From positions 124,001 through 188,000 of the forward strand of contig JACDGL010000006.1 in assembly GCA_013815385.1 (NCBI GenBank): a stretch of DNA of 64,000 nt, written 5' to 3'. The stretch is from Taibaiella sp. Its GTDB lineage: Bacteria > Bacteroidota > Bacteroidia > Chitinophagales > Chitinophagaceae. The stretch's first letter is position 1; every line of letters starts with the position of its first letter. A model generated the notes under the pieces. That model was given only the letters and a program-made list of their open reading frames with translations. It had not been told where the DNA came from and searched no databases. Shown here one piece after another: positions 40,958-44,570 of this stretch. A program made the translations under genes and the position numbers.

Positions 40958-41233
40958 CTATTTCTTCATTTTAGTTTCAGTAGTAATAGTTGTTTTGGTC
41001 ACCATTTTCTTGGCAGTATCTTTAGTAGAAGCCATAGTCTTAGATGTATCCGCCATAGCAGGAGCTGCAGGAGCTGCAGGAGCTGCTGTCATAGTGTCAG
41101 CAGGTGCTGGTGCTGGTGTAGCCATAGTTGCTGTAGAATCAGTAGTGCTGGTGTTTTCAGAACTGCTGCTACCACATGATGCAACGAAAAGGCCCATAGA
41201 AAGAGCAAGGATGCTAATTTTAATGAATTTCAT
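40958..41233 (-). CDS. Ala/Pro/Thr-rich small lipoprotein, 91 aa
   Basis: The lipobox V-A-S-C (Cys20) follows a clear signal. The mature region is low in complexity: Ser/Thr (21-40), then A-P-A-P-A-P and A-A-P-A-A-P-A-M, then a Lys/Thr-rich tail with K-D-T-A-K-K-M-V-T-K. It is probably a disordered, surface-linked spacer. The Ala/Pro part is encoded by three perfect tandem copies of the 9-mer GCAGGAGCT (41058-41084, plus-strand sense), which could change length in frame. No enzymatic domain is visible. Confidence 0.75.
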   Translation of the reverse strand: MKFIKISILALSMGLFVASCGSSSSENTSTTDSTATMATPAPAPADTMTAAPAAPAAPAMADTSKTMASTKDTAKKMVTKTTITTETKMKK

Positions 41234-41455
41234 AAAATTTCTTTTTTTAGATTGTTAATTACCCATTTATACCAGGAACAAGAAAAGGTAACCCTGTAAT
41301 GAGAAATATTTTCTAAAAAAGTTGCACCGTACAATTTATCTGCTTTTATAAGCCATAAATAGATGGGTATTTATTAAATTTGATGACCCGGTGAGCACAG
41401 TCTCATAATTCTTTAGGAATAAGGGTTACTTTTTGACTGAAAAAGGATTAATATT

Positions 41456-42031
41456 TTGAGTGTTATTGCGCTACATAGTGAAGAGTATATGCTTGCCGCC
41501 CTCGCAAAGGGTGAGCGGGTAGCTACAGAGGAGATATATAACCGGCATGCAGATACAATTTGCAGGTGGGTAAAAAAGAATGGCGGCGACAGCACAGATG
41601 CGGATGATATATACCAGGAAGCAATGGTAGTGCTCTTTGAAAAGGCCCAGAACGAAGACTTCAGGCTGACGTGTAAAATAGGTACTTACCTGTTTGCCGT
41701 AAGCAAGCACCTGTGGTACAAGAAACTACAGCAGCGCCAGAACCAGCCTTCTGAATTATCGGGCGATAGTGATGAATGGCACGATAAGGGGTATGAAGAC
41801 GATGTAAATACCCACCATGAACGGGAAGCGCACTACGAACAGATGGATGCGGCGCTGGACCAGCTTGGTGAACCATGCAGTTCTTTATTAAAAGCTTTTT
41901 ATCACAGGGATAGAAGCATGACGGAGATAGCGGCAGAATTCGGGTACACCAACCCGGAGAATGCCAAGACACAAAAATATAAATGCCTTACGCGCCTTAG
42001 AAAGATATTCTACGGTGTACAGGCCAAATAA
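41456..42031 (+). CDS. ECF-type RNA polymerase sigma factor (second)
   Basis: This 191-residue sigma-70 family protein has region 2 at about 20-95 (E-E-I-Y-N-R-H-A-D-T-I-C-R-W, D-A-D-D-I-Y-Q-E-A-M-V-V-L-F) and region 4 at about 125-185 (A-L-D-Q-L-G-E-P-C-S-S-L-L-K-A-F-Y, T-E-I-A-A-E-F-G-Y). The start is TTG at 41456 with AAAAGGA a few bases upstream; an ATG at 41489 would cut the N-terminal helix. The next gene (8 bp away) encodes a membrane protein with an anti-sigma-like N-terminus fused to a protease, its likely regulator. Confidence 0.85.
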   Translation: MSVIALHSEEYMLAALAKGERVATEEIYNRHADTICRWVKKNGGDSTDADDIYQEAMVVLFEKAQNEDFRLTCKIGTYLFAVSKHLWYKKLQQRQNQPSELSGDSDEWHDKGYEDDVNTHHEREAHYEQMDAALDQLGEPCSSLLKAFYHRDRSMTEIAAEFGYTNPENAKTQKYKCLTRLRKIFYGVQAK

Positions 42032-42039
42032 CAAAGACA

Positions 42040-43107
42040 ATGCAGGACGGAAATCATATATGGGCGATTGCGGAGGAGTATGTAGCGGGAACAATAACGG
42101 AGGCTGCCGGTGCAGAGCTGAGCAACCGCCTGCAAACCGATGTGGAATTTGCTGCATCATTTAACGAATGTGTGAACCTGCTACGCTCTATGAAGGGTGC
42201 AGCTACACAGGCGCACTTCAGGGGCACGCTGAAGGATGCCGCGCAAAAGCATAACGCTGCCCGCAAAACCATACCGCTGCGTACCCACTACTGGCGTACC
42301 GGTGCCATAGCGGCAGGGGTAGCCTTGCTTACATCGGCCTGCGCGTTTCTTTCATTCAGCACACACAACAAGAGCAATACCAACCAATACAGTGTACTGC
42401 GCCACGAGATAGAAAATATAAAACGCTCGCAGACGCAGATCATCAGGAACATCAACAGGCAGAATGCTGCCGGTAATACACCCACTGCTGCGGTAAAATA
42501 CAGTGGTACGGGCTTTGCACTAAATAACGAAGGCTATCTTGTTACCAACTATCATGTGGTAGATGGTGCAGATTCTGTATACATACAAAACCAGAAGGGC
42601 GATTACTACAAGGCTATTGTAAAAGCCTTTGACCCTAATACTGATATTGCAGTGCTGAAAGTAGAAGATGAGCATTTCCGGTTTGCCAAAGGGGATGTAC
42701 CCTACACCTTTACCCAGGGTAAAACAGGCCTGGGCGCACATATATATACTGTAGGCTATCCTGATGACGACATGGTGTATAATGAAGGCTATATAAGTGC
42801 CAACAATGGCTACCAGGAAGATTCTATGCAATACAGGATGGAACTGCCTGCTGATCCCGGACAGAGCGGTGCGCCTGTGCTGGATGCTAGTGGCAACGTA
42901 ATGGCCATAGTAACTGCCAAAGGCAACCAGAGCGGGGGCAGCACATATGCTGTTAGCTCTAAGGCATTACTACAGTTGTTGCATTCCATGCCCGCCGACG
43001 AGCGCATCAGCCTGCCGCATACCAACAGGATGGGTAGACTGGACCGTGAAATGCAGATACAGAAGCTGGCACAATATACCTGCTCTGTGAAGGTGTATAA
43101 AAAATAA
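42040..43107 (+). CDS. Membrane-anchored trypsin-like serine protease with anti-sigma-like N-terminal domain
   Basis: This 355-residue protein has a predicted cytoplasmic part (1-85), one membrane helix (about 87-106), a short coiled coil (115-142) and a periplasmic S1C/trypsin-like domain (about 150-345). The catalytic triad is complete: His172 (T-N-Y-H-V-V), Asp202 (P-N-T-D-I-A-V-L) and Ser276 (P-G-Q-S-G-A-P-V). No PDZ domain follows, unlike HtrA. The N-terminal part (Y-V-A-G-T-I-T-E-A-A-G-A-E-L, T-D-V-E-F) resembles the start of FecR-like anti-sigma factors. Placed eight bp behind an ECF sigma gene, it looks like a fused anti-sigma/protease; binding is inferred. Confidence 0.85.
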   Translation: MQDGNHIWAIAEEYVAGTITEAAGAELSNRLQTDVEFAASFNECVNLLRSMKGAATQAHFRGTLKDAAQKHNAARKTIPLRTHYWRTGAIAAGVALLTSACAFLSFSTHNKSNTNQYSVLRHEIENIKRSQTQIIRNINRQNAAGNTPTAAVKYSGTGFALNNEGYLVTNYHVVDGADSVYIQNQKGDYYKAIVKAFDPNTDIAVLKVEDEHFRFAKGDVPYTFTQGKTGLGAHIYTVGYPDDDMVYNEGYISANNGYQEDSMQYRMELPADPGQSGAPVLDASGNVMAIVTAKGNQSGGSTYAVSSKALLQLLHSMPADERISLPHTNRMGRLDREMQIQKLAQYTCSVKVYKK

Positions 43108-43128
43108 CTTGTATTTAAATACTGATAT

Positions 43129-43157
43129 AAAAGCAGCATTGGTATGCTGCTTTTTTT
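43129..43157 (+). terminator. Terminator of the sigma/protease operon
   Basis: A 10-bp stem AAAAGCAGCA / TGCTGCTTTT with a six-base loop is followed by a run of seven T in all. It lies 22 bases after the protease stop codon and closes the two-gene unit. Confidence 0.9.
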
Positions 43158-43252: not shown

Positions 43253-44116
43253 GTGAGCTTTATAAAGAACCTGATTGCCAGTAGAAAAGACCCGCAGGCC
43301 CGTATGGCCTTCACAGATCATATAGAAGATCTGCGCTGGCATATAGTCCGCTCGCTGGCAGTGGTAATAGTTGCGGCCATTGCAGTTTTTATAAAAATAG
43401 AGTGGATTTTCGAGCACATCATACTAGGCCCTGTACATCCTTATTTTATCTCTTACAAATGGTTTTGCGAGCTGGGCCATTTATTGCACATAGATGCCCT
43501 TTGCCTGAAGGATGTAAAAATAAAATTCCAGAATACAGAGCTTGCAGGGCAGTTCGTAATGAGCCTCTCTGTATCCATGGCGCTGGGCTTTATCATGGCT
43601 TTCCCCTATGTGCTGTGGGAATTCTGGCGCTTTATAAAACCTGCACTGAAACCTAGAGAAGTAAAGTACGCACGGGGTATGGTGTTCTGGTGCTCGCTGC
43701 TTTTCTTTTCGGGTGTATTGTTCTCCTATTACATCATAGCCCCTTACACAATCAATTTCTTCGGCAGCTACCAGCTAAGCCCCGAATTCCAGAATATCAT
43801 TACCATGGACAATTATTATGATACCATGAGTGACCTTATTTTGGGTATGGGTATCGTATTTGAGCTGCCAATGATCGTTTACTTCCTGTCGCGCATTGGT
43901 ATCCTTACCCCTATGCTCATGCGCTCTAAACGCAGGTACGCTATACTGATACTGCTGATACTGGCAGAGGTGATAACCCCGCCCGACTGGTTCAGTTGTT
44001 TCCTTGTATTTATACCTTTGTATATACTTTACGAACTGTCCGTTATTATAAGTGCGCGCGCGTACAACGAACGCAAGAGAAAACAAGCACTGAAAGACGC
44101 GGATGCAAATGATTAA
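43253..44116 (+). CDS. tatC: Sec-independent protein translocase TatC
   Basis: This 287-residue polytopic protein is the receptor subunit of the Tat pathway, which exports folded proteins with twin-arginine signals. The conserved N-terminal M-A-F-T-D-H-I-E-D-L-R-W segment (with the signal-binding Glu) precedes the first of six helices. Later come F-P-Y-V-L-W-E-F-W-R-F-I-K-P-A-L-K, F-E-L-P-M-I-V-Y-F-L and the E-V-I-T-P-P-D stretch, all family signatures. The start is GTG at 43253 behind a promoter box. tatA/B are not in the window. It shares a transcript with rpiB, whose start lies at its stop. Confidence 0.95.
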   Translation: MSFIKNLIASRKDPQARMAFTDHIEDLRWHIVRSLAVVIVAAIAVFIKIEWIFEHIILGPVHPYFISYKWFCELGHLLHIDALCLKDVKIKFQNTELAGQFVMSLSVSMALGFIMAFPYVLWEFWRFIKPALKPREVKYARGMVFWCSLLFFSGVLFSYYIIAPYTINFFGSYQLSPEFQNIITMDNYYDTMSDLILGMGIVFELPMIVYFLSRIGILTPMLMRSKRRYAILILLILAEVITPPDWFSCFLVFIPLYILYELSVIISARAYNERKRKQALKDADAND

Positions 44117-44117
44117 T

Positions 44118-44570
44118 ATGCAAACGACCTTTGATAACAGCCAGCCCCTGGCAATAGGGGCAGACCATGCGGGGTTTGAATATAAAGAAGCCCTGAAAAA
44201 AATGCTGGCAGATGCCGGGTGGAATGTTGTGGATAAGGGAACCTATAGTACAGACAGTACAGACTATCCTGACTACGCACACCCGGTGGCACAAATGGTA
44301 GCGGAAGGCAATGCCGCAGTGGGCGTGCTGATATGTGGAAGTGGCGAAGGCGTATGTATGACGGCCAACAAGCACGAAGGTGTACGGGCTGCACTCTGCT
44401 GGAATGAAGAGGTGGCATCGCTTACCCGCCAGCATAATAACGCCAATATCATTTGTCTGCCTGCACGCTTTGTAAGCATAGAGCTGGCGGAGAAGATGGT
44501 AAATATTTTTCTATCTACTGCATTTGAAGGCGGGCGCCATGAGCGCAGGGTAGAGAAGATGGCGCTGTAG
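44118..44570 (+). CDS. rpiB: Ribose-5-phosphate isomerase B
   Basis: This 150-residue enzyme interconverts ribose 5-phosphate and ribulose 5-phosphate. Signatures are I-G-A-D-H-A-G-F near the start, V-L-I-C-G-S-G-E-G-V-C with the catalytic Cys, A-N-K-H-E-G-V-R-A-A-L, and R-Q-H-N-N-A-N-I with the ring-opening His. The Met at 44118, one base after the tatC stop, gives the usual N-terminal length; an upstream ATG at 44103 overlapping tatC is the alternative. It is an ordinary housekeeping gene co-transcribed with tatC. Confidence 0.92.
   Translation: MQTTFDNSQPLAIGADHAGFEYKEALKKMLADAGWNVVDKGTYSTDSTDYPDYAHPVAQMVAEGNAAVGVLICGSGEGVCMTANKHEGVRAALCWNEEVASLTRQHNNANIICLPARFVSIELAEKMVNIFLSTAFEGGRHERRVEKMAL

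Follow-up and report, generated by a model that had tools for sequence, protein, structure and literature searches.

An ECF sigma factor gene of a Taibaiella genome is conserved with a neighbour predicted to join an anti-sigma domain and an HtrA-like protease in one chain

In the sigma-E pathway of Escherichia coli, DegS is the site-1 protease, and the anti-sigma factor RseA is processed in much the same manner as the RsgI anti-sigma factors. For the latter, according to the sections of PMC12203970 used here, RseP cleaves within the membrane helix, leaving XAA ends for ClpXP to recognise, anti-sigma fragments ending in VAA or IAA being degraded and one ending in FAA not. In Bacteroidetes, a class I anti-sigma domain has been reported near 6% of ECF sigma factors, compared with an average of 32%, and the part of PMC7406223 cited here leaves undecided whether this reflects disrupted gene order or the prevalence of other kinds of control in this group.

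We analysed a window of 64,000 nucleotides, the whole stretch of a Taibaiella contig under study. Its plus strand carries, at positions 41456-42031, a gene with a TTG start for a protein of 191 aa, which passed the curated cut-offs of both TIGR02937, sigma70-ECF (68.5 bits over residues 24-183; cut-off 42.9), and PF04542, region 2 (34.6 bits; cut-off 24), and which matched no Pfam region-4 model at E values up to 1. By these profile scores the product is an ECF sigma factor, as a preliminary description of this DNA had proposed. Its stop codon is separated by 8 nt, the spacing given in that description, from the ATG of a second plus-strand gene (42040-43107), predicted to encode a membrane protein of 355 aa in which an anti-sigma part and a protease are combined in one piece. 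The description also took a terminator to close the two genes off as a unit. A terminator-like hairpin does lie at the operon end (43129-43154, plus strand), although it is weak evidence when taken alone, the hairpin scan of the 2.9-kb region having given 4 sites against 2.3 expected from shuffles; the unit, however, exceeds two genes, since a divergent gene for a lipoprotein (40958-41233) and its mirrored promoter belong to it as well. Farther downstream (43253-44570), two genes resembling TatC and RpiB by eye have ORFs that overlap by 14 nt.

We found the sigma and protease genes to be a near-obligate two-gene unit. A search with the sigma gene alone yielded 280 loci, a set that includes one copy of the window and 80 named loci (the best 80 of 583 candidates); in 279 of them a protease gene lies directly behind the sigma gene on the same strand, and the contig ends at the sole exception (L339). 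When protease-found loci and the window's own two copies are included, the pair is present in 406 of 407 fetched loci; the possibility that homologues of the protease would usually stand apart from a sigma gene, which the preliminary description had named as evidence against its reading, is thus not borne out. Some genomes are counted more than once in these figures, and the 406 pairs reduce to 352 distinct ones, which together with the window form the 353 rows aligned below. Rows were dropped for L029, on a contig that stops short of the sigma position, and for L115, which has a broken sigma frame (score 137); L164 and L212, cut by contig ends, were removed from the structure alignment. Loci more than 90% alike were dropped as well, with 60 of the 80 named loci present in alignment A3 and 59 in A4. 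Both the pair and the catalytic triad persist although the proteins have a median identity of 35% (taken over 800 random pairs drawn from the 353 rows), which is more than chance would give. Gaps between the genes, with starts picked by script, ranged from -17 to +23 nt in 118 of 127 cases, -1 being the commonest. Readthrough of the stop codon joining both genes was also considered, since some sigma genes run on in frame, and was rejected, in-frame run-on being found in 49 of 344 loci, as chance frames can give.

In the family of the window, f1, a search at E 1e-55 detected the sigma subfamily in 363 of the 394 genomes, and in 97 of the 101 genera; the corresponding figures were 135 of 151 genomes in family f3, all 100 in f9 and 29 of 101 in f10. 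Across a phylum sample of 395 genomes, sigma scores dropped from 247 to 170 bits with none between. A protease match at E 1e-5 was present in 145 of 147 genomes of f1, with other HtrA proteins counted too. Among the best 80 of 583, the nearest named sigma matches came from Flavipsychrobacter, Taibaiella and bins labelled Chitinophagaceae, followed by Niabella, Terrimonas and Flavihumibacter, and on the closest ones f1 is most likely Chitinophagaceae. One contig labelled Azovibrio restrictus (L149) carries the pair with 63% sigma identity and is probably mis-binned.

The protease domain, supported by profile, alignment and fold match, spans residues 153-310 (42496-42969, plus strand). The 355-aa protein matched Trypsin_2 at E 1e-21 over residues 156-290, and the full triad that had been described, His172 (codon at 42553-42555), Asp202 (42643-42645) and Ser276 (42865-42867), all on the plus strand, was confirmed across the 353 rows, with H in 351, D in 350, S in 350 and gaps in the remainder. 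The absence of PDZ was likewise upheld, there being no PDZ match in the 355-aa protein at E values up to 1 and merely a 45-residue tail after residue 310. The last part of this tail, residues 336-355 (43045-43104, plus strand), is conserved, with R336 and Q339 nearly invariant, and forms a final beta strand. An AlphaFold2 model of the whole protein (mean pLDDT 87) placed a beta-rich protease domain, including the conserved tail, at the C-terminus. In a fold search with the protease domain, DegS-deltaPDZ (3lgi_B) came first (E 1.3e-11), with HtrA1 and MucD just behind (3e-11), so that the modelled fold is that of an HtrA-like domain, slightly closer to DegS than to the others. Sequence comparison put MucD/DegP-like proteins, and not DegS, first among solved proteases, and the best NCBIfam match of the protein, below cut-off, was the MarP family. 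In the stretches viewed of protease relatives that lack a sigma gene (L052-L056, L519-L524), no anti-sigma part was seen; L052-L056 and L519-L521 are secreted or lipoprotein-like, and L522-L524 are HtrA-like.

Judged by the alignment, the protease is under selection as an enzyme, and catalytic activity is predicted. This bears on an alternative in which the domain would act mainly as a ligand-binding sensor while another protease, or autocleavage, makes the first cut. A precedent exists in RsgI9, whose S1C-like ectodomain binds polysaccharide while a separate periplasmic domain cuts itself, as stated in the sections used of PMC12203970. However, no row covering these columns has lost any of the triad or the GxSG motif, a constancy that pure binding would not demand, and we regard a sensor of this kind as quite improbable.

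The N-terminal part, residues 1-86 (42040-42297, plus strand), is predicted to form three helices (residues 4-16, 21-33 and 35-72 in the AlphaFold2 model) and is an anti-sigma domain by profile homology, the evidence coming from hhalign, the NCBIfam family antisigma and the model. A profile of residues 1-85 built from the 353 rows was compared by hhalign with 12 of the 14 anti-sigma-like partner proteins of sister sigma factors described below; 9 were matched with probabilities of 88-97%, a tenth reached 45%, and the other two gave no match. The null was clean: among 250 random neighbour ORFs, 2 exceeded 50%, both of them partners of sister sigma factors, and the other 248 reached at most 33%. 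Standard family models responded less clearly. Residues 1-87 alone matched no Pfam family at E values up to 1, and NCBIfam antisigma was not listed for them at that threshold, whereas for residues 1-110 of the window protein antisigma was the sole NCBIfam match at E<=0.1 (E 0.038), which indicates that the membrane helix contributes to the match. With the helix included, antisigma was matched by 18 of 60 members (best 6.8e-5), the next NCBIfam family being SoxR (9 of 60). Among Pfam matches of the 60, none strong, DUF883_C and Hemerythrin (5 each) ranked ahead of zf-HC2 (4) and RskA_N (3). The proposal that residues 1-85 are anti-sigma-like is thus supported by profile-profile comparison and not by a family match of residues 1-87 on their own, and its FecR component fell away: no FecR family was found in the 355-aa protein at E values up to 1, and FecR membership was rejected. 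Zinc (zf-HC2) membership was rejected as well, residues 1-85 having one Cys and no zf-HC2 match, with weak zf-HC2 matches in 4 of 60 relatives. No RsgI model appeared among the families at E values up to 1, and the partner here is an ECF sigma factor.

Sister loci gave a similar picture. At 21 consecutive next-best sigma loci the family profile met no protease domain, but it matched 10 partner proteins, all in their N-terminal part (best L265, 34.4 bits). By eye, 14 of these 21 loci have an anti-sigma-like partner at the same gene position, of which 11 combine a membrane helix with a different ectodomain, one (L250) is truncated at the end of its contig and two (L261 and L266) are short; the remaining 7 loci lack such a partner. 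Among 10 sister partners scanned, 4 matched zf-HC2 above cut-off and 7 matched NCBIfam antisigma at E 1e-4 or better, below cut-off. Five of the partnerless sister sigma genes (L251, L255, L257, L259 and L262) precede thioredoxin-like or YceI-like secreted genes by eye.

Structure and coevolution contributed less. A PDB sequence search with the N-terminal profile returned nothing significant, the best matches being designed coiled coils and PPAR helices. Foldseek gave 6 matches to the N-terminal model at E<=10, none significant, of which 2 were RslA chains (E 7-9), and the top VIA match was RslA (Z 4.5), level with an unrelated spliceosome chain (4.2). Mean-field DCA of sigma and protease, judged underpowered (350 pairs, effective number 243, 536 columns), gave no enrichment for the N-terminal part, which with 24% of the columns took up 20 of the 100 top inter-protein couplings, while the single strongest pair, R21-T63, does involve this part. 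The N-terminus is moreover shortened in some relatives: in 16 of 28 rows of family f10/Fibrivirga algicola (L188 and L038 among them), half or more of residues 8-45 are missing, and in the twelve such rows viewed mainly residues ~43-80 are left before the membrane helix. These rows keep the pair, the protease and the promoter, so that a minimal anti-sigma element may be enough, unless the function has changed there.

On these grounds one might suppose that the N-terminal part is no anti-sigma factor, and that sigma and protease are merely co-transcribed, the protease being a regulon member. The negative DCA result, the weak fold match, the lack of an anti-sigma family match for residues 1-87 alone and the 16 shortened rows would all suit such a reading. 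Against it stand the hhalign homology to anti-sigma factors with its clean null, the sister partners at the same gene position, the restriction of the family profile to their N-termini and the matches to the family named antisigma; taken together, these make mere co-transcription very unlikely. The earlier suggestion that a sigma-binding part and a protease share one molecule keeps the support of anti-sigma homology and of the conserved triad, but receives none from coevolution.

Between the two domains lies a single transmembrane helix, residues 87-107 (42298-42360, plus strand) by model and alignment. This agrees with the helix at 87-106 in the preliminary description, the AlphaFold2 model having a helix at 82-107 over the membrane segment. 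Within it, residues 90-92 (42307-42315, plus strand) form a [VIAML]AA motif present in 353 of 353 rows (VAA 176, IAA 152, AAA 14, MAA 7, LAA 4), a candidate ClpXP tag exposed after intramembrane cleavage. Apart from the two alanines, no position of the membrane helix is invariant, and AA was read by eye in the same segment in 10 of 12 outgroup partners. A candidate M50 site-2 protease, with one PF02163 match, is encoded in the same genome. On the periplasmic side, the model has a long helix at residues 114-143 (42379-42468, plus strand), which bears out the helix of the coiled coil described previously and leaves the coiled coil itself possible.

The invariant motif is informative about another alternative, in which an anti-sigma factor is present but the protease is an output or quality-control enzyme for misfolded envelope proteins, and its occupancy by substrate, with no self-cleavage, alters the anti-sigma domain. 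Degrading misfolded proteins is the classical task of HtrA enzymes, and the conserved triad, the HtrA-like domain and the sequence proximity to MucD/DegP-like enzymes would fit such a role, as would the fact that no cleavage site was identified in the linker of the protease chain. The invariant [VIAML]AA nevertheless points to proteolytic release, which in known cases follows a first cut outside the membrane, and we consider the quality-control reading unlikely, if still worth keeping in mind.

The preliminary description had reported neither a promoter motif nor a mirrored lipoprotein promoter, and we found both. A motif search located the sequence GGGTTAC-N15-GGATTAA at 41423-41451 (plus strand), a putative promoter of the sigma-protease operon, and a mirrored copy, GGGTTAC-N15-GTATAAA, at 41266-41294 (minus strand), each with one mismatch to GGGTTAC-N15/16-GTATTAA. 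This motif, which was derived from the same 349 upstream regions on which it was scored, occurs with at most one mismatch in 14 positions at 345 of the 349 loci and with none at 293, compared with 1 of 349 shuffled upstream regions reaching the same level. It sits a few bases before the sigma start, and the operon promoter may be autoregulated by its own sigma factor. Here (41445-41460) and in the relatives, the first in-frame sigma start, mostly GTG or TTG, is often 2-4 nt behind the -10 element, and given this distance the sigma mRNA may be leaderless.

The mirrored copy faces a divergent gene for a small lipoprotein (40958-41233, minus strand; 91 aa, lipobox VASC), which begins 32 nt behind it. 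With up to 2 mismatches, a mirrored copy is present at 304 of 353 loci and missing from 49, and 301 of the 304 are followed, at a median distance of 37 nt, by an ORF with a lipoprotein-like signal, compared with 105 of 1056 random starts under the same permissive lipobox-ORF test. These divergent lipoproteins have a median length of 67 aa and are rich in Thr, Ala, Asp, Ser and Lys; Lys is the terminal residue in 171 of 290 complete ones. The one in the window (40958-41233) and its relatives are of low complexity. In terminal lysine and low complexity they may resemble Braun's lipoprotein.

In the 3.25-Mb genome of the window itself, no sites other than the two in the window match with a 15-nt spacer and one mismatch or fewer, and at up to three mismatches with this spacer the motif is no more frequent than its reversed control (323 sites versus 326). 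With a 16-nt spacer, 5 further one-mismatch sites were found (contig:position in this genome, G000, C5:6002, C16:17148, C31:90948, C39:54980 and C39:117771), compared with 2 in the reversed control. In 117 genomes of the family, the exact motif occurs 177 times, distributed over 96 genomes, while the reversed motif, counted by hand, occurs 16 times. We examined 20 sites outside the locus, selected mostly for T-rich spacers. Of the downstream ORFs, 7 encode a conserved protein of 141-146 aa with a signal-like N-terminus (L498-L502, L504, L509) and another 7 a small glycogen-binding-like protein (L503, L511-L514, L516, L517), AMPK1_CBM being above cut-off in both 96-aa members scanned and just below it in the 201-aa one; 2 encode a protein of 48-49 aa, 1 another small lipoprotein, which was single in clustering and named by its sequence, and 3 are single. 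That unrelated gene families recur downstream of the motif speaks for a real promoter.

From these data we propose, with moderate confidence, that the locus encodes an ECF sigma switch under its own control, in which the membrane anti-sigma factor and the site-1 protease are a single protein. Our confidence in the one-chain reading is no higher because the protease is nearest to MucD by sequence and the antisigma match needs the membrane helix. At rest, to judge from homology, the cytoplasmic N-terminal helices would hold the sigma factor at the membrane. On an envelope signal, the HtrA/DegS-like domain would cleave its own chain, or that of a neighbouring copy, in the periplasmic segment. As the motif and the RsgI and RseA precedents suggest, an M50 site-2 protease would then cut the membrane helix and expose the [V/I]AA end, and ClpXP would destroy the fragment, so that the sigma factor is freed. 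The free sigma factor, if the promoter match is a guide, would fire both mirrored promoters, yielding its own operon as feedback and the small lipoprotein, which is the most constant output found. Our fullest version of this scheme is tentative and could readily prove wrong in part: a one-molecule switch cuts itself or its neighbour on an envelope signal, the mirrored promoters make both the switch and the lipoprotein, and the lipoprotein could be the sensed signal or a brake, the loop reporting lipoprotein transport or the state of the envelope in f1 and three further families.

The unit provides a conserved example, near-universal in one family, of an anti-sigma domain that standard models miss. 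If the mechanism is true, the textbook cascade of three proteases is shortened here by one separate protein; the shared promoter, in turn, makes part of the regulon readable from the sequence. Our literature search found no description of the architecture, although the 2021 re-classification of ECF sigma factors (10.1093/nar/gkaa1229), which lay outside its scope, may list the group; the one-chain arrangement is not mentioned in the portions of PMC8103513, PMC7406223 and PMC8999054 on which we draw.

The locus may be compared with several known systems. It shares with the E. coli sigmaE-RseA-DegS-RseP pathway an ECF sigma factor, a single-pass anti-sigma factor and a trypsin-fold HtrA protease, and RseA, like the window protein, has a cytoplasmic N-terminus and an xAA motif in its membrane helix. 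In E. coli, however, anti-sigma factor and site-1 protease are separate proteins, whereas here they are one chain; DegS has a PDZ sensor and the window protein has none; and the window system has few promoter sites per genome. With the HtrA family (DegS-deltaPDZ, 3lgi/2qf0, by fold; MucD, 8k2y, by sequence) the protein has the fold and triad in common, but it lacks PDZ and has gained an N-terminal anti-sigma domain. The zf-HC2 anti-sigma factors of sister loci (L249, L252, L253, L258) share its gene order, N-terminal helices and AA in the membrane helix, but have a His/Cys zinc motif and non-protease ectodomains in place of a protease without zinc motif. The FecR/FoxR regulators of cell-surface signalling also combine an anti-sigma role with proteolytic release, but they have a FecR domain, none of which was detected here at E values up to 1. 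RsgI9 of Clostridium thermocellum, as presented in the sections of PMC12203970 used here, is likewise an anti-sigma factor with an S1C protease-like ectodomain and a membrane-helix XAA tag, and in RsgI proteins the first cut is made by the molecule itself, as we propose for the window protein. According to the same sections, however, the partner of RsgI is SigI and not an ECF sigma factor, the self-cleavage of RsgI takes place in a distinct periplasmic domain, polysaccharide binding being the role described for the S1C-like domain of RsgI9, and RsgI9 is an orphan without a paired sigma factor, whereas the window protein is paired. Anti-sigma factors with protease-like ectodomains (RsgI9), self-cutting anti-sigma factors and the DegS-RseA route are thus already known; what differs here is the predicted union, in one chain, of an ECF anti-sigma domain with a triad-complete HtrA-like protease, nearly fixed in a family and accompanied by mirrored putative promoters and a lipoprotein.
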